Assembly (NCBI RefSeq): GCF_000814025.1
Contig: NZ_JWLL01000003.1
Span: forward strand, 1 to 64,000
Direction: 5' to 3'
Source of the DNA: Tateyamaria sp. ANG-S1
GTDB lineage: Bacteria; Pseudomonadota; Alphaproteobacteria; Rhodobacterales; Rhodobacteraceae
DNA length: 64,000 bases
Position 1 is the stretch's first letter; each line of letters begins with the position of its first letter. Below, in pieces: positions 33,901 through 45,501 of this stretch. The notes under the pieces are model-generated. The model searched no databases and was not told the origin of the DNA. It saw only the letters and a program-made list of their open reading frames with translations. A program made the position numbers and the translations under genes.

Positions 33901-34335
33901 ATGTTCCAAGACCTCCTCAAGCGGCTGATCCAGCCCGAACCCGCCCCCCTGCAAGACGCTGACGCCCGGCTGGCCCTCACCGCTTTGTTGGTGCGCGTGG
34001 CCCGATCCGACAACGACTATTCCGGCGACGAACAGGCGCTGATCGACCAGATCACGCAGGACCGCTACGGGCTTTCTATCAATGATGCCAAGGCTTTGCG
34101 AGCTGAAGCGGAAGCAATGGAGACCGAAGCCCCCGACACCGTGCGCTTCACCCGCGCCATCAAAGACGCCGTCGCCTACGAAGACCGCCTTGCCGTGATC
34201 GAAGCGCTGTGGAAGGTCGTTCTGGCAGACGGGCAGCGCGCGCAGGAAGAGGACGCGCTCTTGCGGCTGGTCACCAACTTACTGGGCATCACCGACCAAG
34301 ACAGCGCCAAGGCGCGCCAGCGCGTCAGCGGATGA
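33901..34335 (+). CDS. TerB-like protein (copy 2)
   Basis: Another 144-residue TerB-like protein, with LTALLVRVARSDNDYSGDEQ and AYEDRLAVIEALWKVVLADG aligning to copy 1 without gaps over most of the length. Tandem duplication is the likely origin. The stop overlaps the start of the PhnD-like gene (ATGA), so all three genes probably form one transcript. Confidence 0.75.
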   Translation: MFQDLLKRLIQPEPAPLQDADARLALTALLVRVARSDNDYSGDEQALIDQITQDRYGLSINDAKALRAEAEAMETEAPDTVRFTRAIKDAVAYEDRLAVIEALWKVVLADGQRAQEEDALLRLVTNLLGITDQDSAKARQRVSG

Positions 34336-35069
34336 TCGCATCGCTCGGCATGTACGACATGCCGCATCTGCGTGACGCCCATGATCGGCTCTGGGCGGGC
34401 ATACGTACGGCCCTTGGATATGGCCCCGATCACCTGACGCGCGACGGTGATCCATGGACGGAATGGCAGGCCTCCGACCTGCTTCTGGCCCAGACGTGTG
34501 GCCTGCCGTATCGGGCACGGTTGCGTGACCAGGTCACACTTGTCGGCACGCCAGATTATGACCTGCCAGACTGTCCATCGGGGTACTACTTCAGTTACCT
34601 GATCCGACGGCGCGACGACCCCCGGTCCTTGAGAGAGCTTTCGAAACGAGGGGTTATGGCCTACAACGAACCGCTATCACAATCCGGTTGGGCCGCTCCG
34701 GTGACGCATTTGGCGGCGCGTGGGCTAAGACCGAAGCGGATCAAACAAACCGGGTCCCACTTGGTAAGCATTCAAAGTGTGCTGTTAAAAACAGCAGATT
34801 ACGCAGCCATCGACGCCGTAACAATGCTCCTCTGGGGCGCTGAAGATATGGATGCGGTTGCTTATCTCGAAGCTTTCGACACGACCGAACCAACACCGGC
34901 ACTGCCCTATATCACCGCACTGGATCGCGATCCCGCACCAATTGCGGATGCGGTGCGCACAGCCATCGCTGCAATGTCGCACGAGGACCGGTGCGATCTG
35001 CGCCTCAAGGGGCTGGTCGACATCCCAGCCTCTGCCTACCTCGACCTGCCCATACCGCCTGCGCCCTGA
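34332..35069 (+). CDS. PhnD-like periplasmic-binding-fold protein lacking a signal peptide
   Basis: The 245-residue protein resembles phosphate/phosphite/phosphonate-binding proteins of the PhnD family: ASLGMYDMPHLRDAHDRLW, LLAQTCGLPYRARL, YFSYLIRRRDD and TGSHLVSIQSVL. It starts directly with the folded domain and has no signal peptide or lipobox, unlike exported binding proteins. It overlaps the upstream TerB gene by four bases. A cytoplasmic ligand-sensing role is possible; no permease is linked to it. Confidence 0.7.
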   Translation: MIASLGMYDMPHLRDAHDRLWAGIRTALGYGPDHLTRDGDPWTEWQASDLLLAQTCGLPYRARLRDQVTLVGTPDYDLPDCPSGYYFSYLIRRRDDPRSLRELSKRGVMAYNEPLSQSGWAAPVTHLAARGLRPKRIKQTGSHLVSIQSVLLKTADYAAIDAVTMLLWGAEDMDAVAYLEAFDTTEPTPALPYITALDRDPAPIADAVRTAIAAMSHEDRCDLRLKGLVDIPASAYLDLPIPPAP

Positions 35070-35193: not shown

Positions 35194-35967
35194 GTGTCCG
35201 ACACTGCTGTTATTGAAATCCGCAACCTGCACAAAGCCTATGGCGCCCTTGAGGTGTTGAAAGGCGTGGATATTCGGGCAAAACGCGGCGATGTGGTGTC
35301 ATTGATCGGCTCGTCCGGCTCAGGCAAATCGACCCTTCTGCGATGCTGCAACCTGCTCGAAGACAGCCAGCAGGGCGAGGTGCTGTTCAAGGGCGAACCG
35401 GTCATATGGAAAGGCCGCGATCACGGCCGCCGCCCTGCTGACGCCAAGCAAGTGATGCGCATTCGCACGAACCTGTCGATGGTGTTCCAGCAATTCAACC
35501 TGTGGGCCCATATGACGATCCTGCAGAACGTGATGGAAGCCCCCGTGACCGTGTTGCGCCGCGATCCAGCCGAGGTTGAAAAGGCCGCGCGCGCATATCT
35601 CGACAAGGTTGGGATCGGCGACAAATGCGACGTCTATCCGGCCCAACTTTCTGGCGGCCAGCAGCAACGCGCGGCCATTGCCCGCGCGCTTTGCATGGAG
35701 CCCGAGGCGCTACTTTTTGACGAGCCAACCAGCGCGCTCGACCCCGAGCTTGAACAGGAAGTCGTCAAGGTGATCAAGGACTTGGCCGCCGAAGGGCGGA
35801 CCATGCTGATCGTTACGCACGACATGAAGCTGGCCCATGACGTGAGCGATCATGTCGTGTTTTTGCACCAGGGCCGGATCGAAGAACAAGGGGCGCCCGA
35901 CGATCTCTTCGGCGCCCCCAAATCCGAACGACTGCGCGGGTTTCTCTCTGCAACCCACGCTGCGTAA
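35194..35967 (+). CDS. Amino-acid-type ABC transporter ATP-binding protein
   Basis: The 257-residue ATPase starts at a GTG (35194); no better start is near. Walker A GSSGSGKST, signature LSGGQQQRAAIARAL and Walker B ALLFDEPTSALD are intact, and the insert after Walker A (EPVIWKGRDHGRRP) is typical of the HisP/AotP group for basic amino acids. It heads a four-gene uptake system with the binding protein and two permeases. A CGTCTG-N7-CAGACG hairpin (35163-35181) is in the leader. Confidence 0.93.
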   Translation: MSDTAVIEIRNLHKAYGALEVLKGVDIRAKRGDVVSLIGSSGSGKSTLLRCCNLLEDSQQGEVLFKGEPVIWKGRDHGRRPADAKQVMRIRTNLSMVFQQFNLWAHMTILQNVMEAPVTVLRRDPAEVEKAARAYLDKVGIGDKCDVYPAQLSGGQQQRAAIARALCMEPEALLFDEPTSALDPELEQEVVKVIKDLAAEGRTMLIVTHDMKLAHDVSDHVVFLHQGRIEEQGAPDDLFGAPKSERLRGFLSATHAA

Positions 35968-35994
35968 ACATATAAACCAACGGGAGTATCACTT

Positions 35995-36717
35995 ATGAAA
36001 TCCATCCTTTTTTCGACGGCTGCTGTCGCAATGACCGCAACCTTTGCACTGGCCGATGGCCACTCGGTCGTGCGTATGGGCACCGAGGGCGCGTACCCTC
36101 CCTACAACTTCATCAATGACGCCGGTGAAGTGGACGGGTTCGAGCGCGAGCTGGGCGACGAGCTGTGCGCGCGGGCCGAGCTGACCTGCGAGTGGGTCAC
36201 CAACGAATGGGACAGCATCATCCCCAACCTCGTGTCCGGCAACTACGACACGATCATCGCGGGCATGAGCATCACGGATGAGCGGGACGAGGTTATCGAC
36301 TTTACCCAGAACTACACCCTGCCCGACCCGTCGGCCTATGTCGCAATGTCGGCTGATGTCGATCTGGAAGGCGGCGTTCTGGCAGCCCAAGCCAACACGA
36401 TCCAGGCCGCCTTCATCGCCGAAACTGGCGCGACACTGGTTGAATTCGCAACGCCCGAAGAAACCATCGCTGCTGTGAAAAACGGCGAAGCCGACGCGGT
36501 GCTGGCCGACAAGGCGTTCCTGACGCCCATCGCCGACGAAGATGCCGACCTGATGATGCTCGACAAGGAAGAGCTGATCGGCGGCGGCATCGGTCTTGGC
36601 CTGCGCGAAAGCGACACCGAGCTGAAAGAGAAGTTCGACGCCGCCATCACCTCGATGAAGGAAGATGGCTCGCTGAACGCGCTGATCGCCAAATGGGAAA
36701 TCGGCGACGGCTTTTAA
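35995..36717 (+). CDS. Periplasmic amino-acid/amine-binding protein (SBP family 3)
   Basis: The 240-residue protein has a signal peptide (MKSILFSTAAVAMTATFALA) and family 3 motifs: RMGTEGAYPPYNF, GFERELGDELC, DSIIPNLVSGNYDTI and MSITDERDEVIDFTQNY. The closest familiar relatives bind lysine/arginine/ornithine or related cationic compounds. It lies 27 bases after the ATPase gene; a leaky terminator follows it. The substrate is a matter of inference. Confidence 0.9.
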   Translation: MKSILFSTAAVAMTATFALADGHSVVRMGTEGAYPPYNFINDAGEVDGFERELGDELCARAELTCEWVTNEWDSIIPNLVSGNYDTIIAGMSITDERDEVIDFTQNYTLPDPSAYVAMSADVDLEGGVLAAQANTIQAAFIAETGATLVEFATPEETIAAVKNGEADAVLADKAFLTPIADEDADLMMLDKEELIGGGIGLGLRESDTELKEKFDAAITSMKEDGSLNALIAKWEIGDGF

Positions 36718-36730
36718 AGACCTCTTGGCA

Positions 36731-36759
36731 GGGCGGAGGACACCTCCGCCCTCGTTTTT
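36731..36759 (+). terminator. Intra-operon hairpin with T-run after the binding-protein gene
   Basis: GGGCGGAGG-ACA-CCTCCGCCC followed by TCG and five T residues lies between the binding-protein and first permease genes. A partial terminator here would make more binding protein than permease, as is common in ABC operons. Confidence 0.7.
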
Positions 36760-36768
36760 CTGACGTTC

Positions 36769-37653
36769 ATGTTTTCCTTCTGTACCGACCCAAGCACCCT
36801 GCCCGACTGGCAGTGGATGGCGTGCTACCTGACCACGGGCAAGCACATGTCGATCTATTGGTCGGTGCTGACTGTCTTTCTTTTGCTGGCCATCACGGCA
36901 CCCACGGCCCTTGCCTTTGGCTTCGCCGGGGCGTCCGCCGCACGCTCGCGCATCGCGCCCGTGTCGTGGTTGGGACGCGGCTACATCGCGATTGTTCGGG
37001 GCGTGCCCGACATCGCATTTTTCCTGTTTTTTGTCATCGCGCTGGATCAGGCCATTGAATACTTGCGCCACCGCGCGCTTTGCCCCGACTGGACCGAGCC
37101 GGTTCGGCAGGGCAACGATTTTGTCGTCTGTGCCGCCGCCAAGATGCCCTTAGGCAATGCACCGCAATGGATTCACGAAACCTACGGCTTTGGTCTTGCT
37201 GTTCTGACTTTTGCCATCGTGTTCGGCGCCTTTGCTGCCAACGTGCTGTTCGGTGCAATGCGCGCCGTGCCCAAGGCGCAGCTTGAGACCGCAGAAGCCT
37301 ACGGCATGACCCCGCGACAGACGTTCTGGCGCGTGATGGTGCCACAGATGTGGGTGTTTGCCCTGCCGGGCCTGTCGAACCTGTGGATGGTGTTGATCAA
37401 GGCGACGCCGCTTCTGTTTCTGTTGGGGGTCGAGGACATCGTCTATTGGGCGCGTGAGTTGGGCGGGACCAAGACGTCGCGCTTTACCGAGTATCCACAT
37501 GGCGACTGGCGGATGTGGTACTTTCTTGCACTGCTGATCTTCTATCTGATGTTCACCCGCGCGTCCGAGATCGTGCTGGACCGGCTGATGGTGCGCCTGA
37601 CCCGTGGACAAGCGACGACGGGCGGTGAAGCACAGCGGAAGGCTGCAGTATGA
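36769..37653 (+). CDS. ABC transporter permease, HisM/HisQ type (1)
   Basis: The 294-residue protein has about five membrane helices and the EAA loop ETAEAYGMTPRQTFWRVMVPQ for contact with the ATPase. Compared with typical permeases of this class (220-240 residues) it has an extra periplasmic loop (about 105-140, rich in Cys and Trp: ALCPDWTEP). It overlaps the second permease by four bases. Confidence 0.9.
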   Translation: MFSFCTDPSTLPDWQWMACYLTTGKHMSIYWSVLTVFLLLAITAPTALAFGFAGASAARSRIAPVSWLGRGYIAIVRGVPDIAFFLFFVIALDQAIEYLRHRALCPDWTEPVRQGNDFVVCAAAKMPLGNAPQWIHETYGFGLAVLTFAIVFGAFAANVLFGAMRAVPKAQLETAEAYGMTPRQTFWRVMVPQMWVFALPGLSNLWMVLIKATPLLFLLGVEDIVYWARELGGTKTSRFTEYPHGDWRMWYFLALLIFYLMFTRASEIVLDRLMVRLTRGQATTGGEAQRKAAV

Positions 37654-38456
37654 GTTGTCTCCAGACCATCGCCGACTACGGCCTGCGTTCCATCGGCATT
37701 GGCGAGCGGCTTTTGCCGCGCGAGGACTTCACGCTGTGCCAGCAGTTCACCCTGATCGGGTCGGGCATGATCTGGAACATCTATTTCGGGCTGCTTGCCC
37801 TTGTGTTCGGCTTCATGCTGGCCACGGCTGTTGCCATGGGCAAGAACGCGCAGTCCAAGCTGATCCGCAAACCATCGGAATGGTTCATTTTCATCTTCCG
37901 AGGCTCGCCGCTCTTTATCCAGTTCTTCTTTGCCTATTTCCTGTTCCTGCAACTCAAGAGCGTGCATCCGTTCTTCGACCCGTTTTCCGCCGCTTGGCTG
38001 GGCGCACTGATCGTGTTGTTCCTGAACACGGCCGCCTACTCGGCCGAGATCTTCTATGGCGCATTGCAGTCCATCCCCAAGGGCGAAGTCGAGGCCGCCG
38101 ATGCTTACGGCCTGTCCGGCTGGCCCCGGTTCAAGCGAGTTGTGTGGCCAACGATGCTTCGGCTGGGCTGGCCAGCCTACACGAACGAGGCGATCTTTCT
38201 GTTTCACGCTACCACGCTTGTTTACTTCTCGGGCTTTCCGGCGTGGCAGCAGCGGGGCGATGCGCTTTACTACGCGAACTACTTTGCGGACAAGACGTTC
38301 AATCCGTTCATCCCCTATCCGATCCTGGCCGGATATTTCATCCTGTTGACACTGATCATCATAGGCATCTTTGGCCTTGTGAACCGGCGGCTGAACCGCC
38401 ATTTGCCCGCCAATACGCGCCAGAAGATGAAACTGCGCATGAACCTGATCCGGTGA
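37650..38456 (+). CDS. ABC transporter permease, HisM/HisQ type (2)
   Basis: The 268-residue permease overlaps the first by four bases (ATGA). It has membrane helices and the EAA loop EAADAYGLSGWPRFKRVVWP. With the first permease it forms the heterodimeric channel of the basic amino acid-type importer. It is the last transporter gene before the glutamine-synthetase-family genes. Confidence 0.9.
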   Translation: MSCLQTIADYGLRSIGIGERLLPREDFTLCQQFTLIGSGMIWNIYFGLLALVFGFMLATAVAMGKNAQSKLIRKPSEWFIFIFRGSPLFIQFFFAYFLFLQLKSVHPFFDPFSAAWLGALIVLFLNTAAYSAEIFYGALQSIPKGEVEAADAYGLSGWPRFKRVVWPTMLRLGWPAYTNEAIFLFHATTLVYFSGFPAWQQRGDALYYANYFADKTFNPFIPYPILAGYFILLTLIIIGIFGLVNRRLNRHLPANTRQKMKLRMNLIR

Positions 38457-38465
38457 AGATTTTGT

Positions 38466-38499
38466 GCCTCCGGCGGTGGTATTTTTAGTCAGAAGAAGA
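38466..38499 (+). repeat. Dispersed Rhodobacterales intergenic repeat, copy C
   Basis: This 34-base copy of the GCCTCCGGCGGTGGTATTTT element (see 26032-26065) ends two bases before the ATG at 38502. Its AGAAGAAGA end therefore serves as the purine-rich leader of the ligase gene. Confidence 0.85.
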
Positions 38500-38501
38500 G
38501 C

Positions 38502-39839
38502 ATGATGCACGATTGGCTTGTCGATAACCCCGAAATCCGCGCGATCCGCGTGGCGGCGGCCGATCTGAATGGCGTGGCGCGGGGCAAGCGGATGCCGGTG
38601 CGCTTTGCCGACAAGGTCACTCAAGAAGGGACGCGCTTTCCTATGTCTGTTCTGAACCTCGACATCTGGGGCGAGGATATTGAGGACAGCCCGCTTGTCA
38701 TGGAGAGCGGCGATCGCGACGGCGTTCTGCGCCCGACCGCGCGTGGTTTTGTGCCGATGCCTTGGCTCAATACGCCCACGGGATTGCTGCCGATCTGGAT
38801 GTATCACGAGGACGGCCGCCCCTTTATGGGCGATCCACGTCATGCTTTGGCTGACGTACAAAAGCGGTTCTCGGACAGAGGGTTGACGCCTGTAGTTGCT
38901 GTAGAGCTTGAGTTTTTTTTGATCGACGATGCAGGAAGCCGGTTGCGTGTGCCGCCGTCGCCGCGCTCGGGCAAGCGCCGGGTAGCGGGTGAGATCCTGT
39001 CGATGCGTACACTCGATGCTTTCGACGATTTCTTTACCGAGCTCTATGACGCATGCGAGGCAATGGACATTCCCGCGGATACCGCCATTTCCGAAAGCGG
39101 GCTGGGTCAGTTTGAGATCAACCTCGTTCACCAGCCCGATGCGCTGAAGGCGGCGGATGATGCGTGGCTGTTCAAGATGCTGGTCAAGGGGCTGGCGCGC
39201 AAGCACGGGTTTGCGGCGTCCTTCATGGCCAAACCCTATCCGGACTATGCGGGCAACGGGTTGCATATGCACTTTTCGGTGCTGGATCAGGACGACAAGA
39301 ACATCTTTGATGACGGCACGGAGGCTGGCAGTGACGCATTGCGCCACGCCATTCAGGGCTGTCTGGCGGCGATGCCCGGGTCCATGCTGGTCTTTGCACC
39401 GCATGCCAATTCCTATGCTCGCCTCGTGCCGGGGGCGCATGCGCCCACGGGCATCGCCTGGGCCTATGAGAACCGGACGGCGGCGATCCGTGTGCCCTCG
39501 GGGCCTGCGCCTGCGCGCCGGATCGAACACCGGTTGGCCGGGGGCGACGTGAACCCGTACCTGTCCATCGCCGCCGTGTTGGGGGCAGCACTGAACGGGA
39601 TCGAGGATGCAGCCGAGCCACCTGCGCCAATCACCGGAAACGCCTATGCGCAGGATCTGCCGCAAGTGCCTGACACGTGGGACGAGGCTATGGTCGCATT
39701 TGAAACCAGCGCGGAGATCGCCCGAGTCTTCGATGCCGAGTTGATCCGCAACCTACTGATGACCAAGCGGCAGGAGGCGAAGCACATGGCCGACCTCAGC
39801 CCCGAGGAACAGACCGAAATCTACCTCGACAGCGTTTGA
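38502..39839 (+). CDS. Glutamine-synthetase-family ligase (PuuA-like), copy 1
   Basis: The 445-residue enzyme has the type I glutamine synthetase catalytic fold: VELEFFLID, ESGLGQFEINL, NGLHMHFSV, YENRTAAIRVP and HRLAGGDVNPYLSIA. It lacks the adenylylation loop of housekeeping GlnA and groups with gamma-glutamylputrescine synthetases, which join glutamate to an amine with ATP. A second such gene is at 40561. The AGAAGAAGAG leader derives from a dispersed repeat. The substrate is not determined. Confidence 0.88.
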   Translation: MMHDWLVDNPEIRAIRVAAADLNGVARGKRMPVRFADKVTQEGTRFPMSVLNLDIWGEDIEDSPLVMESGDRDGVLRPTARGFVPMPWLNTPTGLLPIWMYHEDGRPFMGDPRHALADVQKRFSDRGLTPVVAVELEFFLIDDAGSRLRVPPSPRSGKRRVAGEILSMRTLDAFDDFFTELYDACEAMDIPADTAISESGLGQFEINLVHQPDALKAADDAWLFKMLVKGLARKHGFAASFMAKPYPDYAGNGLHMHFSVLDQDDKNIFDDGTEAGSDALRHAIQGCLAAMPGSMLVFAPHANSYARLVPGAHAPTGIAWAYENRTAAIRVPSGPAPARRIEHRLAGGDVNPYLSIAAVLGAALNGIEDAAEPPAPITGNAYAQDLPQVPDTWDEAMVAFETSAEIARVFDAELIRNLLMTKRQEAKHMADLSPEEQTEIYLDSV

Positions 39840-39878
39840 GCCGCGCACTATCTTCGCGGCGTAACCATCAGGTGATCC

Positions 39879-40568
39879 ATGAAAATCGGCATTCTGCAAA
39901 CCGGCCACGCGCCCGACGAAGTGTTGGGCAGCCTGGGCGACTATGACGCCATGTTCGCGCGTGTTCTGGACGGGCACGGCTTTGACTTCCAGACCTTCAA
40001 CGTCGTCGATATGGAGTTTCCCGACGGGCCGGAGGTGTGCGACGGCTGGTTGGTGACAGGCTCAAAGCACGGGGCCTATGAGGATCACCCGTTCATACCG
40101 CCGCTTGAGAGTCTGATCCGCGCCATTCATGTCTCGGGCCGTCCAATGATTGGCGTTTGCTTTGGTCATCAGATCATCGCGCAAGCCATGGGCGGAAAGG
40201 TCGTGAAGTTCGATGGCGGCTGGTCTGTGGGTCGGCGCGAATACACCTACAAGGGCGAGACGGTCGCCGTAAACGCATGGCATCAGGATCAGGTGGTTGA
40301 GGTGCCGCCGGGGGCCGAAGTCATTGGGTCGAACGACTTTTGCGAGAACGCAGCCCTTGTCTATGGCGACCGCATCTGGACCATCCAGCCCCACCCTGAA
40401 TTCGGTTCGGAGATGGTGGAAGCGCTGGCCACGCACCGCGCGCCCGGCGTCGTGCCTGTCCCGCTGATTGAGGGGGCCCGCGCCCAGCTTGGCATGCCAA
40501 CCCAGCGCCACAAGGTGGCCGAAGACATGGTTGCCTTTTTGAAACAGGGGGCGCGCGTCGATGTCTGA
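39879..40568 (+). CDS. Class I glutamine amidotransferase-like protein
   Basis: The 229-residue protein has the glutaminase triad C94 (GVCFGHQ), H172 and E174 (QPHPEF), and the oxyanion region VTGSKHGAYED. It is of the GuaA-type GATase1 class (COG0518), not the PuuD gamma-glutamyl hydrolase class. It lies between two PuuA-like genes, overlapping the second by eight bases. It may hydrolyse a gamma-glutamyl intermediate or supply ammonia; which is not decided by sequence. Confidence 0.85.
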   Translation: MKIGILQTGHAPDEVLGSLGDYDAMFARVLDGHGFDFQTFNVVDMEFPDGPEVCDGWLVTGSKHGAYEDHPFIPPLESLIRAIHVSGRPMIGVCFGHQIIAQAMGGKVVKFDGGWSVGRREYTYKGETVAVNAWHQDQVVEVPPGAEVIGSNDFCENAALVYGDRIWTIQPHPEFGSEMVEALATHRAPGVVPVPLIEGARAQLGMPTQRHKVAEDMVAFLKQGARVDV

Positions 40569-41922
40569 ACCCTGGACCACACGGCTGCCCGAAGCAGCGC
40601 GGCTTTACCTTGAAGGCAAGCGGCTGGACGAGGTCGAGTGCATCATCGCGGACCTGCCCGGCATCGCGCGGGGCAAGGCGGTGCCCGCCAGCAAGTTCGC
40701 GCGGCAGGACTATTTCCATCTGCCAGACAGCATCTTTTATCAGACCATAACCGGCGACTGGGGCGAGGCTGCGGACGAGGACGGCTTTATCGAAAAGGAC
40801 ATGATCCTGAAGCCGGACATGTCGACGGCCACTGCAGCGCCCTGGACCGGTGACTGGACGCTGCAGGTGATCCACGACGCCTATGACCGCAAGGGCAACC
40901 CGGTGCCCTTCTCCCCCCGCAACGTGTTGAAGCGGGTGGTGCAGCTTTACAAGGACCGGGGCTGGAAACCCGTTGTAGCACCCGAGATGGAGTTCTTCCT
41001 GATCGCCCGCAACCTTGATCCGGCGCAAGAGATCGAGCCGATGGTGGGCCGGTCCGGCCGCCCCGCGGCTGCGCGGCAGGCGTACTCGATGACAGCCGTG
41101 GATGAGTTCGGCCCGGTGATCGACGACATCTACGATTTTGCCGAAGCGCAGGGGTTCGAGATTGACGGCATCACGCAGGAGGGCGGCGCAGGCCAGCTTG
41201 AGATCAACCTGCGCCACGGCGATCCGGTCAAGCTTGCCGACGAGGTGTTCTATTTCAAGCGTCTGATCCGCGAGGCGGCGCTGCGCCACGACTGCTTTGC
41301 GACCTTCATGGCCAAACCCATCGCGAGCGAGCCCGGTAGTGCCATGCACATCCACCATTCGATCATCGATATGGAGACCGGGCAAAACCTGTTTGTCGGC
41401 CCGCAGGAGGGCGACACCGACGCCTTCTTTCACTTTATCGCAGGTCTGCAAAGCCACTTGCCTGCGGCACTTGCCGTCATGGCCCCCTTCGTCAACAGCT
41501 ACCGCCGCTACGTGAAGGACCATGCCGCCCCGATCAACCTCGCCTGGGGGCGCGACAACCGCACGACCGGTATCCGCATCCCCCTGTCCGAGCCGCAGGC
41601 GCGGCGGGTCGAGAACCGGATCGCGGGGATGGATTGTAACCCATATCTTGGCATCGCGGCTTCACTGGCGTGCGGGTATCTCGGTCTGATCCAGGAACAG
41701 AGGCCCTCAGCCCAGTTCCGGGGGGATGCGTATGAGGGCGACGGAGACATTCCGCGCGTTCTGGGCTCGGCCCTTGATCTGTTTGATCAAGCCACCGATC
41801 TGCACGAGGTTTTGGGAACCGAATTCGCGCGCGTCTATTCCATTGTGAAACGCGCTGAGTACGACGAGTTCCTTCAGGTCATTTCGCCATGGGAGCGCGA
41901 GCATTTGCTGCTGAACGTCTAG
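40561..41922 (+). CDS. Glutamine-synthetase-family ligase (PuuA-like), copy 2
   Basis: The 453-residue enzyme shows PEMEFFLIARN, GGAGQLEINL, AMHIHHSIID, NRTTGIRIPLS and NRIAGMDCNPYLGIA, with conserved active-site residues. It differs enough from copy 1 (about one third identical by eye) to suggest a different amine partner. The start overlaps the amidotransferase gene by eight bases. Gene order ligase-amidotransferase-ligase-oxidase points to one gamma-glutamyl pathway. Confidence 0.88.
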   Translation: MSEPWTTRLPEAARLYLEGKRLDEVECIIADLPGIARGKAVPASKFARQDYFHLPDSIFYQTITGDWGEAADEDGFIEKDMILKPDMSTATAAPWTGDWTLQVIHDAYDRKGNPVPFSPRNVLKRVVQLYKDRGWKPVVAPEMEFFLIARNLDPAQEIEPMVGRSGRPAAARQAYSMTAVDEFGPVIDDIYDFAEAQGFEIDGITQEGGAGQLEINLRHGDPVKLADEVFYFKRLIREAALRHDCFATFMAKPIASEPGSAMHIHHSIIDMETGQNLFVGPQEGDTDAFFHFIAGLQSHLPAALAVMAPFVNSYRRYVKDHAAPINLAWGRDNRTTGIRIPLSEPQARRVENRIAGMDCNPYLGIAASLACGYLGLIQEQRPSAQFRGDAYEGDGDIPRVLGSALDLFDQATDLHEVLGTEFARVYSIVKRAEYDEFLQVISPWEREHLLLNV

Positions 41923-41929
41923 GCCGCAA

Positions 41930-41968
41930 AACGGCCCTTCGGGGAGGATTTTTTGGAAATAGGGAAGA
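41930..41968 (+). repeat. CTTCGGGGAGGATTTTTTGG intergenic repeat variant
   Basis: CCTTCGGGGAGGATTTTTTG and GAAATAGGGAAGA lie directly before the ATG of the FAD-oxidase gene. It belongs with the composite intergenic elements of this window that end in purine-rich leaders. The GGGAAGA end acts as the ribosome-binding leader. Confidence 0.5.
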
Positions 41969-43267
41969 ATGGACCTTCTGACGGCCAATGATCAGCCCGG
42001 TGCGTATCCGGACAGTTGGTATGCGGCCACGGCTGACATCCCAGATGTGCGTGCACCGTTGCAGGGACAGATGCAGGCGGACGTGTGCATCGTGGGCGCA
42101 GGCTATACCGGGCTGTCGGCGGCGCTGCATCTGGCGCAGGCCGGTCGGCGTGTCGTCGTGCTTGAGGCGCAGCGCGTGGGCTTTGGCGCCTCGGGGCGCA
42201 ATGGCGGGCAGCTTGGCACCGGGCAGCGGGTTGAACAGCCCCATCTTGAGGACATGCTAGGCAAGGCGGATGCACGCAGGCTGTGGGATCTGGGGCTTGA
42301 GGCTACGGATCTGGTCCGCGATCTGATCGATGCCTATGGGATCGACTGTCTGTATCGTCCCGGCGTGGCGTGGACCGCAGAGAGTGATGGAGATGTCGCA
42401 GAGCTGCACGCCTACGCAGATCACATGGCGCGGCACTACGACCACACGCTTGAGGTGCTGGACCGGGACACCTTTCACGACATCTGCCCGTCGCCCGCCT
42501 ATCGCGGTGGAGTGATCGACCCGCTTTCGGGGCACCTTCATCCGCTGCGCTTTGCGCTGGGTCTGACGCGCGCCGCAGAGGACGCGGGCGCGACAATCTT
42601 TGAGCGCAGCACGGTGACAGGAATTGCTGAAGGCGCGAGGATTGAGGTTCAAACCAAGGCGGGCAGTGTCGCAGCCGAGCATCTCATACTCGCCTGCAAT
42701 GGCTATCTGGGTCGTTTGAACAGGCACGTTGCCGCGCGCGTGATGCCCATCAACAACTTCATCGCCGCCACAGCACCGCTAGAAGACCCTGCCCGCGTGC
42801 TCACCCGCGACATCGCGGTGGCCGATGGCCGTTTCGTGATCAACTACTTCCGGCTTAGCCATGACAACCGTCTGCTGTTTGGCGGCGGCGAAAGCTATGG
42901 CTACCGCTTTCCAACCGACATCGCGGCAAAGGTGCGCGCGCCGATGGCAGAGATCTTCCCCCATCTTTCCGACGTGCCCATAGACTACGCCTGGGGCGGA
43001 ACACTCGCCATCACGATGAAGCGCCTGCCCTATCTGGCGCGGCTGGGCCCCAATGTCCTGAGCGCATCGGGCTATTCCGGGCACGGCGTGGGAACCGCAA
43101 CCCATGCCGGCATGTTGATGGCGCGGGCCATTCAAGGTCAATCGGACGGATTCGATTCCATGGCAGCCATCCCCTCGCGCCCGTTTCCGGGCGGCGCACG
43201 GCTGCGTAACCCGCTCCTGGTGCTTGCAATGACCTGGTACAGCCTGCGCGACAGGCTGGGTGTCTGA
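41969..43267 (+). CDS. FAD-dependent oxidoreductase, gamma-glutamylputrescine oxidase (PuuB)-like
   Basis: The 432-residue protein is a DAO/GlpD-type flavoprotein. The FAD motif VCIVGAGYTGLSAALHL is at about 36-52, followed by GFGASGRNGGQLG, and the C-terminal SGYSGHGVGTATHAG closes the FAD site. Close relatives oxidise the free amino group of gamma-glutamylputrescine to an aldehyde. Its place right after a PuuA-like gene supports this type of reaction. Confidence 0.88.
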   Translation: MDLLTANDQPGAYPDSWYAATADIPDVRAPLQGQMQADVCIVGAGYTGLSAALHLAQAGRRVVVLEAQRVGFGASGRNGGQLGTGQRVEQPHLEDMLGKADARRLWDLGLEATDLVRDLIDAYGIDCLYRPGVAWTAESDGDVAELHAYADHMARHYDHTLEVLDRDTFHDICPSPAYRGGVIDPLSGHLHPLRFALGLTRAAEDAGATIFERSTVTGIAEGARIEVQTKAGSVAAEHLILACNGYLGRLNRHVAARVMPINNFIAATAPLEDPARVLTRDIAVADGRFVINYFRLSHDNRLLFGGGESYGYRFPTDIAAKVRAPMAEIFPHLSDVPIDYAWGGTLAITMKRLPYLARLGPNVLSASGYSGHGVGTATHAGMLMARAIQGQSDGFDSMAAIPSRPFPGGARLRNPLLVLAMTWYSLRDRLGV

Positions 43268-43356
43268 CCTCAATCCCGCCTGTGCGTCACAAAATCGTTT
43301 CCTTTTGCGCCTATCGGATTTAGAAAACCAAAAACCGAGCATAAGGATTCTGAAAT

Positions 43357-44535
43357 ATGACCCTGCCCGACATGCACTCCGCCGAGCCCATCCCCGCTGC
43401 CGCCCGGGCAGAGATTGACAGACTCCTGACCTCCGGCGATCTGTTCCGCTACACGGCGCCGCAAGACGCACCCGTTTCCCTGCTGGAAGCTGAATTTGCC
43501 GAGATGATGGGCAGCAAATTCGCGCTGGCCGTGTCCTCATGTTCGGCGGCGCTGTTCCTGTCGCTCAAAGCGCTGGACCTGCCCCGCGATGCCCGCGTGC
43601 TGATCCCCGGATTTACCTTTGCCGCCGTGCCGTCCTCGGTTCTGCATGCCGATTGCCTGCCGGTGCTGTGCGAAGTGCGGGATGACTACCGCATCGACAT
43701 CGACGACTTCGTGGCGAAGCTGCCCACGGTGCAGGCCGTCATCATCAGCCACATGCGCGGCCACACCTCGGACATGGACGCAATCATGACCCTGTGCCGT
43801 GCTGCACATGTGCCGGTGATCGAGGATGCGGCCCATTCTCTGGGCACGCTGTGGAACGGCCAGAAGATCGGGACCATCGGGACCATCGGCTGCTTCTCCT
43901 TCCAGTCCTACAAGATGATCAACGCTGGCGAAGGCGGGATCATGATCACCGATGATGCCGATCTGGTGGCCCGCGCGATCATTATGTCCGGCGCGTACGA
44001 GCACAATTGGAAGAAACACCCGGTCCTTCAGGATGCCTTTGCCCGGCACCAGAACCAGTGGCCGCTTTACAACCTGCGCATGTCGAACCTGAGCGCTGCT
44101 GTGATCCGTCCGCAACTGCCACATCTGGCAAAGCGGGTCGAAGACGGGCGGCGCAACCATGACCATGTGGCCGCCTTGCTGGAACGCAGCGCCCACATCC
44201 ACGTGCCGGACCCGCTTGCGGGCGAGATCCGCGCACCTGACTCGATCCAGTTCAACCTGGTCGACATGACAGATGCACAGGTAGACGCCTTCGTTGCCGC
44301 AGCAGCCACGCGCGGGGTCAAGGTTCAGGTCTTTGGCGCAAGCGCGGACAATGCGCGCGCCTTTTGGAACTGGCAATTCATCCCCAACCTGCCCGACTTG
44401 CCGCAGACGCGGGCCATGCTGATGCGCGCCTGTGATGTGCGTCTGCCGGTGCACCTGCCGACCGATACCCTGGATGCGGTGGCAGATGCGTTGTGCGACG
44501 CGGTGGCAACGGCGACAGAACCCCGCGCCGCCTGA
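43357..44535 (+). CDS. DegT/DnrJ/EryC1/StrS-type PLP enzyme
   Basis: The 392-residue protein has the family fold: ALAVSSCSAALFLSLKAL, IEDAAHSLGT and the PLP lysine K186 in SFQSYKMINAGEGG. Most members are sugar aminotransferases, but no sugar nucleotide genes are present here. The setting suggests transamination of an amine- or aldehyde-derived product of the flavin oxidase, or an undescribed use. A small tandem 9-base duplication (ATCGGGACC x2, encoding IGTIGT) lies near the active-site lysine. Confidence 0.85.
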   Translation: MTLPDMHSAEPIPAAARAEIDRLLTSGDLFRYTAPQDAPVSLLEAEFAEMMGSKFALAVSSCSAALFLSLKALDLPRDARVLIPGFTFAAVPSSVLHADCLPVLCEVRDDYRIDIDDFVAKLPTVQAVIISHMRGHTSDMDAIMTLCRAAHVPVIEDAAHSLGTLWNGQKIGTIGTIGCFSFQSYKMINAGEGGIMITDDADLVARAIIMSGAYEHNWKKHPVLQDAFARHQNQWPLYNLRMSNLSAAVIRPQLPHLAKRVEDGRRNHDHVAALLERSAHIHVPDPLAGEIRAPDSIQFNLVDMTDAQVDAFVAAAATRGVKVQVFGASADNARAFWNWQFIPNLPDLPQTRAMLMRACDVRLPVHLPTDTLDAVADALCDAVATATEPRAA

Positions 44536-44559
44536 GCGCTGCAGGGCCATTGCAGCGCT
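44535..44559. other. Hairpin AGCGCTGCA-N7-TGCAGCGCT between two transaminase genes
   Basis: A perfect 9-bp stem with a 7-base loop starts at the DegT stop codon. It lacks a T-run, so it may be an mRNA-stability or partial-termination element in the operon. Confidence 0.5.
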
Positions 44560-44583
44560 GACACTGCTGGTTAGTGTTGTGGC

Positions 44584-45501
44584 ATGACCGATTTATCAAA
44601 CGGTGCCGCGTGGATGGGTGGCACAATCATTCCTGTGCAAGACGCAGCAATTCCCGTGACCGACTGGGGCCTGACGCACGCCGATACGGTGTACGACGTG
44701 GTGCCCGTATGGCGCCGGGCGTTCTTTCGGCTGGACGACTATGTGGACCGTTTCATCGCGTCGCTGACCGCCGGACGTTATGACATAGATATGGATCGTG
44801 CTGACATCTGTTCGGCCCTTCACCAGATGGTGGCGGCCAGCGGCCTGCAAGATGCCTATGTCGCTATGGTTGCAGCACGTGGGCGCAATCCCGTCCAAGG
44901 CAGCCGTGACCCGCGTGATTGCACAAACCATTTTTACGCCTGGTGCGTTCCTTATGTTCACATCGTCAAGCCCGATATTGCGGCTCGGGGCACGTCTGTC
45001 TGGATCGCGAAATCGGTTCGCCGTATTCCGACCGACAGCGTGGACCCCAAGGTCAAGAACTACCACTGGGGCGACTTCACATCGGGCCTGTTCGAGGCCA
45101 AAGACAAGGGGTTTGAGACGACACTGCTGCTGGATCACGCGGACCACGTCACAGAGGGCCCGGGCTTTAACGTGTTTGCCGTCTTTGGCGATCGGGTCGT
45201 GACATCCGATCACGGTGTCTTGCACGGTATCACACGGCGCACGGTTCTTGAGATGTGTGCGGAGGCGGGCTTGCAGACAGAAACGCGCCTTCTCCCGCTC
45301 AGTGAATTCTGGCGCGCGGACGAGGTGTTCCTATCGACGTCCGGTGGCGGTGTTATCCCCGTCGCGCGTGTCGACGACCGGCACTTTTCCAACGGCACTG
45401 CCGGACCCGTCGCCACGGCCCTGCGGGCCAAGTACTTTGACTGGATCATGCGCGATATGCACCGGATACCGGTTCAATTTGAAACCGAAGACCAGACGTA
45501 G
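44584..45501 (+). CDS. Class IV aminotransferase (D-amino acid / branched-chain type)
   Basis: The 305-residue PLP enzyme has the lysine K158 in PKVKNYHWGD and the class IV phosphate-binding motif TEGPGFNVFAV. The sequence is intermediate between D-alanine aminotransferase and branched-chain enzymes; R-transaminases that act on amines share this fold. It is the last gene of the amine block and converges on phaR. Confidence 0.87.
   Translation: MTDLSNGAAWMGGTIIPVQDAAIPVTDWGLTHADTVYDVVPVWRRAFFRLDDYVDRFIASLTAGRYDIDMDRADICSALHQMVAASGLQDAYVAMVAARGRNPVQGSRDPRDCTNHFYAWCVPYVHIVKPDIAARGTSVWIAKSVRRIPTDSVDPKVKNYHWGDFTSGLFEAKDKGFETTLLLDHADHVTEGPGFNVFAVFGDRVVTSDHGVLHGITRRTVLEMCAEAGLQTETRLLPLSEFWRADEVFLSTSGGGVIPVARVDDRHFSNGTAGPVATALRAKYFDWIMRDMHRIPVQFETEDQT

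Follow-up and report, generated by a model that had tools for sequence, protein, structure and literature searches.

A block of ten consecutive genes, lettered A to J here, was examined in a 64,000 nt stretch of the Tateyamaria sp. ANG-S1 genome (contig NZ_JWLL01000003.1, positions 1 to 64,000, called the window below). The block encodes an ATP-binding cassette (ABC) importer, two glutamine synthetase (GS)-like ligases, a glutamine amidotransferase (GATase)-fold protein, a flavin adenine dinucleotide (FAD) oxidase and two pyridoxal 5'-phosphate (PLP) enzymes. It is common to most sampled genera of Rhodobacteraceae and, judging from its protein families, probably degrades glutamate-tagged amines. 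The reading we favour, with a probability of about 0.5, is that an amine linked to a basic amino acid is degraded by gamma-glutamyl catabolism, and that a transaminase branch stands in for a clustered aldehyde dehydrogenase. Its starting points are the observed gene content, conservation and paralogy of the block and the three kinds of transaminase observed at one place within it.

A sequence-only reading of the same DNA had described a ten-gene block with a cationic amino-acid-type ABC importer, a ligase, oxidase and hydrolase logic and two PLP enzymes at its end, and all of this was borne out. Inspection of the open reading frames (ORFs) confirmed ten intact ORFs at 35194-45501, all on the + strand. 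Domain scans assigned them to ABC_tran, SBP_bac_3, BPD_transp_1 (two), Gln-synt_C (two, E and G, at 313 and 335 bits), GATase class I, DAO, DegT_DnrJ_EryC1 (202 bits) and Aminotran_4 (117 bits), with the importer falling in the PAAT class.

Each reaction and substrate in the following scheme is predicted from these families. The substrate would be a primary amine or diamine tied to a basic amino acid, and importer A-D would take up a lysine-like cationic amino acid, as suggested by the 76% identical structure 3i6v. E and G, a specialised pair, would couple the gamma-carboxyl of glutamate to amines differing in length or kind, H would convert the free amine end to an aldehyde, a dehydrogenase encoded elsewhere would oxidise that aldehyde, and F would strip the glutamate. 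I and J, or a class III enzyme in relatives, would form a parallel branch in which a keto acid accepts the amino group from the free amine, making a clustered dehydrogenase unnecessary; the freed amino-aldehyde or amino acid may be alternative substrates of this branch. The amine is at least as likely to be transaminated directly as an aldehyde is to be re-aminated, because PMC6328768 reports five transaminases tested in vitro, four of them from potF-ligase-type neighbourhoods, which used putrescine and none of which used 4-aminobutyrate (GABA); the class III enzymes from such neighbourhoods are among the putrescine users.

Conservation and linkage of the block

A DegT-led scan of named genomes gave at least 80 loci, all picked by the presence of the DegT gene I and some on short contigs; by title they are of Rhodobacterales type except two given as Alphaproteobacteria only (L032, L033). 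By gene calls, all of A-I are found in 42 of the 80 listed loci and J in 13. In the 68 listed loci that span 17 kb or more, the genes are found as follows: A 48, B 48, C 49, D 53, E 64, F 67, G 64, H 60 and J 12. Locus L137 had no gene calls. Because these loci were chosen by DegT, an independent family sample of 100 genomes, one per genus and selected without regard to DegT, was taken, with match thresholds of E<=1e-150 for G, E<=1e-100 for DegT, E<=1e-70 for J and E<=1e-180 for the class III enzyme.

Within this sample a G match was found in 94 genomes, DegT in 62, J in 19 and the class III enzyme in 25. A G match lies no more than 10 kb from DegT in 45 of the 62 DegT genomes, against about 0.5% per genome under random placement; the class III enzyme is that close to G or DegT in 16 of 25 genomes and J in 7 of 19. 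The sequence-only reading had proposed a check of the gene set in roseobacters and would have counted loss of linkage of the last two genes in relatives against itself; on these figures linkage fails for J and holds for DegT. Block-type G (at least 68% identity) is present in 79 of the 100 genomes, a count that omits 15 genomes whose G matches all fall below 68%. In comparisons at the genome level, which ignore kinship, block G occurs in 56 of the 62 genomes with DegT versus 23 of the 38 others (p 0.0005), and the class III enzyme also co-occurs with block G above expectation (p 0.011). Rhodobacteraceae are important in marine nitrogen turnover, and a block-type G in 79 of 100 sampled genera makes the substrate of the block matter.

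Transaminases in the position after the oxidase

In 54 of the 79 block-type G genomes I, J or the class III enzyme, alone or in combination, lies within 10 kb: I only in 35, class III only in 8, I with class III in 5, I with J in 4, J only in 1 and all three in 1. The class III enzyme is encoded after the oxidase in eight sampled genomes without a linked DegT (L092, L094, L096, L097, L127, L129, L132, L138), six of which have phaR on its far side. At L093, J stands alone in the position after the oxidase. Mutual exclusion of the three enzymes was considered and ruled out, since I, J and class III genes are consecutive in three genomes (G010, L191, L192).

The class III enzyme of this position (L097:10228-11595) scores 834-845 bits with 4grx, 5ztx, 3nui and 4e3q and 812 bits with 4e3r, the next match being 405 bits. 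These five structures are labelled aminotransferase, transaminase or pyruvate transaminase, and the first four are Paracoccus and Vibrio fluvialis enzymes. It also passes the NCBIfam model NF004767 'aminotransferase' (551 versus a cut-off of 517 bits). A phylum-wide search found the enzyme in 15 of 398 genomes, all 15 in Rhodobacteraceae. Twelve of the 15 loci were examined (G020 and G041 had earlier been scored as unlinked and G737 was outside the set), and 11 of the 12 carry block genes. The host strain has no close class III enzyme, its best match being 36% identical.

J scores highest among NCBIfam models with a branched-chain type, at 152 bits and below the cut-off of 363. Its best eight solved chains score 232-240 bits and include amine and (R)-selective transaminases, of which 6snl, 6xwb, 4ce5 and 4cmd score 235-240 bits; 3wwh scores 189. 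Branched-chain aminotransferase is the label of 7dbe, at 206 bits, and of other chains that score at most 152, so (R)-selective amine transaminase is a tentative label for J; D-amino acid transaminases score at most 67. None of eight regions around relatives of J outside the block (L203-L210, 44-59% identity) holds block-type E-I genes. Two of these regions are from the same family as the host (L203, L210), one has an importer ATPase 52% identical to A (L207), and two have a distant class III gene (L208, L210).

Enzymes of the 4grx type and (R)-selective amine transaminases are known from biocatalysis, where they serve in making chiral amines. By score the genes here are like those solved enzymes, and their setting is a gamma-glutamyl amine cluster. 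Beyond the works cited in this text, searches of open-licence literature brought up none on this operon or on a natural role of such transaminases. The block offers a concrete genomic setting for the class III enzyme and for some (R)-amine-transaminase-like enzymes (7 of 19 for J), so that their natural substrates become testable by roseobacter knock-outs. A bolder reading, which we hold less likely than not, is that three unrelated amine transaminases share a single roseobacter operon slot: DegT, a class IV enzyme resembling (R)-amine transaminases and a Vibrio fluvialis-type class III enzyme. If this were true, these biocatalysts would have a natural role in gamma-glutamyl-linked catabolism of amines from lysine-like nutrients, and the DegT fold would have moved from amino-sugar synthesis to the breakdown of amines.

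The DegT enzyme

I belongs to the DegT/DnrJ/EryC1/StrS family by its PF01041 score (202 bits), a matching fold and an invariant lysine. This lysine, K186, is invariant across 20 aligned sequences including that of I itself and is presumably the PLP lysine, following the family pattern. The predicted model of I (pLDDT 84) has sugar and cyclitol aminotransferases as its nearest solved structures, with Z scores of 37-39. We know of no catabolic role of a DegT enzyme in print, and the block points to a possible one.

Some loci keep I without the ligases. The importer, F and DegT are present without E, G and H in L073, L084, L107 and L111, as well as in L110, which is on a 3.6 kb contig, and the importer and DegT are present without E, F, G and H in L082 and L109. 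DegT also follows a set of P450, ligase and ferredoxin genes in three genomes. These stretches, from three genera (L105:553-8230, L106:1622-8253, L117:1361-8415), hold an aldolase, a GntR regulator, a GATase, a P450, a GS-like ligase and a ferredoxin, then DegT, and the set looks like a P450-dependent gamma-glutamyl amine pathway. At L120:7483-11620, DegT, a hemL-like class III transaminase (NF005453, 699 bits) and a GS-like ligase are consecutive. As DegT occurs both beside other GS-like ligases and with the importer alone, it appears tied to GS-like ligases and, independently, to the importer.

That DegT and J are mere positional neighbours, with DegT an old gene beside phaR serving a separate task, perhaps in surface sugar, we consider improbable. 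DegT does adjoin phaR or lie one or two genes off at loci without E-H (L105, L111, L112, L114, L116, L118), and at L121 it is near phaR with F and G several genes away. However, DegT adjoins other GS-like genes with no phaR in the stretch examined at L106, L117 and L120, its genome-level co-occurrence with block G exceeds expectation (p 0.0005, kinship ignored), and no recurring sugar-pathway genes were seen beside it in the loci read by eye.

The favoured catabolic reading has a further competitor, in which the aldehyde made by H is re-aminated, as the sequence-only reading had suggested for such an aldehyde: lysine or a relative would be protected by gamma-glutamylation, its far end oxidised, the product transaminated by DegT and deprotected by F, giving interconversion and not breakdown. 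Fic25 is found among the 50 listed structures nearest I, with three entries at 25-26% identity and Z 38, one of which holds a PLP-N2-acetyl-DADH adduct. N2-acetyl-DADH is a linear diamino acid, and the Fic25 pathway presumably uses gamma-glutamyl-type protection. The persistence of F and I with the importer where E, G and H are gone can be counted for re-amination; yet I then persists where nothing is left to protect or oxidise. No net benefit of such an interconversion is evident, and the Z score of Fic25 is tied with those of many sugar enzymes. We regard re-amination as slightly more improbable still than mere neighbourhood.

A class-wide search found DegT at E<=1e-70 in 9 of 289 genomes, 5 of the 9 belonging to families other than Rhodobacteraceae. 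In two other alphaproteobacterial families (L170, L171), DegT relatives of 38-41% identity lie beside a gene that by eye is histidinol-dehydrogenase-like, together with TRAP transporter genes in L170.

Ligases and related gene clusters

GS-type active-site motifs are mostly kept in E and G in an alignment read by eye, in which G departs from GlnA at one asparagine. The only other GS-like genes of the host are GlnA and a GS-III-like one. The latter lies on contig C6 (L174) with glutamate-synthase-like subunits, beside genes that by eye resemble the beta-hydroxyaspartate cycle.

A ligase tree of 122 rows was built by a quick method and has long branches; its rows include neither loci L165-L173 nor fragments shorter than 410 aa, and 70 of the 80 loci in the series L005-L084 are likewise absent. 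Block E forms a single clade of 37 rows (support 99). Block G forms a single clade (support 100) of 55 block rows and L131, a contig-edge row of no category. It does not fall within a clade of G ligases from pot clusters; its neighbour (support 84) is a pot-type set of eight rows, five of them beside pot-type genes, and other pot G rows are deeper. L155, labelled 'block' beforehand, groups inside this eight-row set.

The pot-type clusters are a second kind of cluster, found in other genera, which combines potFGHI-type genes with a G-type ligase at 54-61% identity and often an H-type oxidase. Some also have a class III transaminase (35-38%), an agmatinase-like gene or an E-type ligase. The block is like these potFGHI-linked Rhodobacteraceae clusters in its G-type ligase and H-type oxidase, in the class III transaminase nearby and, for some clusters, in the E-type ligase. 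It is unlike them in that their importer is of PotFGHI type, some of them have an agmatinase-like gene, and not all of them have a GATase; the pot clusters examined showed neither DegT nor a class IV gene. The statement of the sequence-only reading that the block matches no known pathway was thus too strong, given the shared ligase and oxidase types, the frequent class III gene and the precedent in PMC6328768. Ligase kinship with the pot clusters, the potFGHI genes of R. pomeroyi and that precedent mark the block as a specialised paralogue of clusters already known, those of the potFGHI-linked gamma-glutamyl type.

This kinship also raises an alternative to the favoured reading, namely that the block is a second operon for degrading a polyamine (putrescine, cadaverine or spermidine), its transaminases being of the end-of-path omega-amino acid type that convert GABA or 5-aminovalerate to the semialdehyde. 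G and E adjoin pot-cluster ligases in the tree, relatives have class III transaminases in their pot clusters, and the host has its own potFGHI-type cluster, flanked by a class III transaminase. As the only other GS-like genes of the host are GlnA and the GS-III-like gene, E and G may serve that cluster in trans. On the other side, the block importer is of an amino-acid type and not PotFGHI, and the nearest structures of its binding protein bind lysine, arginine, ornithine or opines. In R. pomeroyi the polyamine importer is potFGHI (SPO3466-3469), linked by mutants to cadaverine, putrescine and spermidine in PMC10130141; we liken it to the pot clusters here by type. In addition, the pot-cluster transaminases tested did not use GABA, according to PMC6328768. 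Overall, a second polyamine operon seems rather unlikely.

In the host, no PotFGHI importer is beside the block ligases; its potFGHI-type genes are on another contig. That locus (L188, host C28:189911-195412) holds a potFGHI-type importer and a class III transaminase, 35% identical to the block type, with no GS-like ligase among the called genes.

Two better-known systems can be compared. The Puu pathway of E. coli consists of PuuA, PuuB, PuuC, PuuD and PuuP. The block shares with it the types of ligase, FAD oxidase and GATase-fold hydrolase; unlike it, the block has two ligases below the model cut-off, an ABC importer for PuuP and added PLP enzymes, and lacks PuuC. The labels 'PuuA-like' and 'PuuB-like' in the sequence-only reading accordingly fit the type of ligase and FAD oxidase and are loose beyond this, as the ligases and the oxidase score far below the cut-offs of curated models. 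In the Pau/Spu system of Pseudomonas, a single organism has several ligases as well as a polyamine transaminase. The block resembles it in having several ligases plus one or more transaminases, a likeness compared in sequence only via PDB 4hpp, 'Probable glutamine synthetase', which gives 63 and 65 bits with the ligases. To our knowledge Pau/Spu has no DegT or class IV enzyme.

The importer and its ligand

All parts of a PAAT importer are present: the ATPase A, the SBP_bac_3 binding protein B and the permeases C and D, of HisQ/HisM type. The top NCBIfam model for A is HisP (327 bits, below the cut-off of 466). B is identical to PDB 3i6v at 159 of 209 aligned positions (76%), and 74% identical in the structural alignment. 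The title of 3i6v, as far as it is readable, runs 'from Silicibacter pomeroyi in complex with ly', and we take the ligand to be lysine. Among the structural neighbours listed for B, ranks 2-23 bind lysine, arginine, ornithine or opines, and lower ranks include binders of cystine, histidine and glutamine. R97 of B is invariant across 25 aligned sequences, its own included, and is presumably the carboxylate ligand of this family of binding proteins. From these comparisons the predicted ligand of B is an alpha-amino acid with a positive side chain and not a plain diamine. PMC8786288, which cites 3i6v, gives it to A. variabilis, in conflict with the title of the entry.

A search of the host for decarboxylases covered the PF02784 family and gave two matches, by eye LysA-like and biosynthetic arginine decarboxylase-like, the second of which makes a route from arginine to agmatine possible. 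In R. pomeroyi, SPO2699-2702 are annotated as an 'opine/polyamine ABC transporter', with the gene order of A-D, and are enriched in co-culture with Micromonas, as stated in PMC9870897. These genes were considered as functional proof for A-D and not used, since orthology could not be established. PMC8319176 gives SPO2697 as a coenzyme A-binding protein.

Hydrolase, oxidase and the dehydrogenase

F matches PF00117 at 53 bits and PF07722 (Peptidase_C26) at 23.5 bits against a cut-off of 20.5, with no single stretch passing alone. Its top solved relative is gamma-glutamyl peptidase 1 (9k7i, 76 bits), and the motifs GVCFGH and HPE are present. H has a DAO domain (239 bits), and its top NCBIfam model is L-pipecolate oxidase (204 bits, below the cut-off of 600). 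H is missing from five loci with E, F, G and I (L020, L023, L041, L078, L079), and in L020 and L023 an amine oxidase (PF01593 in L020) lies between D and E.

The lack of a dehydrogenase pointed out in the sequence-only reading was confirmed, as none of the ten block proteins matches PF00171. Across 169 loci of relatives, a two-motif scan, not calibrated on known members, gave five candidates, none at a recurring place; a quirk of this strain was thereby ruled out as the cause. The nearest candidate is 1.3 kb from a gene of E-I type, in a pot-type cluster (L153). Elsewhere in the host genome there are eight PF00171 matches at E<=1e-60, so that a dehydrogenase could act in trans. On the opposite strand in an uncultured Tateyamaria (L007:15984-18733), about 5-7 kb beyond DegT, are an H-like oxidase of 31% identity and a candidate aldehyde dehydrogenase.

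Points against the favoured reading

Several observations weigh against gamma-glutamyl catabolism with a transaminase branch. Both ligases fall short of the curated model for gamma-glutamylputrescine synthetase (NF045547), scoring 199 and 177 bits against a cut-off of 650. The lysine-type ligand of 3i6v was seen in an orthologue of B, under a title legible only to 'ly'. The solved relatives of DegT act mainly on sugars and cyclitols, and because DegT and the importer persist without ligases, DegT may serve the importer and not the ligases. In 25 of the 79 block-type G genomes, some of them on short contigs, none of I, J and class III is within 10 kb, so the transaminase branch is not obligatory. 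At the genome level J is not associated with block G, which 15 of its 19 genomes carry (p 0.64, kinship ignored). Finally, TR2 (7qx0), the transaminase tested in PMC6328768 for which there is a structure, scores no more than 291 bits against the block's class III enzyme and so represents a different branch.

Gene layout and neighbouring genes

The coordinates of the block are given in Table 1. The intergenic gaps from A to J are, in order, 27, 51, -4, 45, 39, -8, 46, 89 and 48 bp. The hairpin between B and C is one of 11 terminator-like sites across the region, versus a mean of 9.4 in shuffles; it perhaps damps expression downstream of the binding protein, giving differential expression. A promoter scan of the region gave three sites versus 3.4 by chance, which is no excess.

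Table 1. Features of the block in the window.
Feature	Position	Strand	Assignment
A	35194..35967	+	ABC importer ATPase, HisP/PAAT type (domain and NCBIfam scans)
B	35995..36717	+	Periplasmic binding protein, SBP_bac_3; relative PDB 3i6v
Hairpin between B and C	36730..36752	+	Terminator-like, 10 pairs
C	36769..37653	+	Permease, HisQ/ArtQ type; BPD_transp_1
D	37650..38456	+	Permease, HisM type; BPD_transp_1
E	38502..39839	+	GS-like ligase 1; Gln-synt_C
F	39879..40568	+	Class I glutamine amidotransferase-fold; probable gamma-glutamyl hydrolase
G	40561..41922	+	GS-like ligase 2; Gln-synt_C; tree neighbour of pot-cluster ligases
H	41969..43267	+	DAO-family FAD oxidase; probable gamma-glutamyl-amine oxidase
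I	43357..44535	+	DegT/DnrJ/EryC1/StrS PLP enzyme
J	44584..45501	+	Class IV PLP transaminase; accessory gene

The host genome comprises 4.4 Mb in 32 contigs, and among the matches listed its nearest named relatives by DegT are Tateyamaria (83-94%). On the 3' side of the block, on the opposite strand, are a PHB_acc (phaR-like) gene, a weak phasin match and PhaC. On the 5' side are a TerB-domain gene and a PF12974 (PhnD-like) gene; the latter, at 34332-35069, precedes the block and belongs to a cluster represented in 40 of the 120 loci L005-L124.

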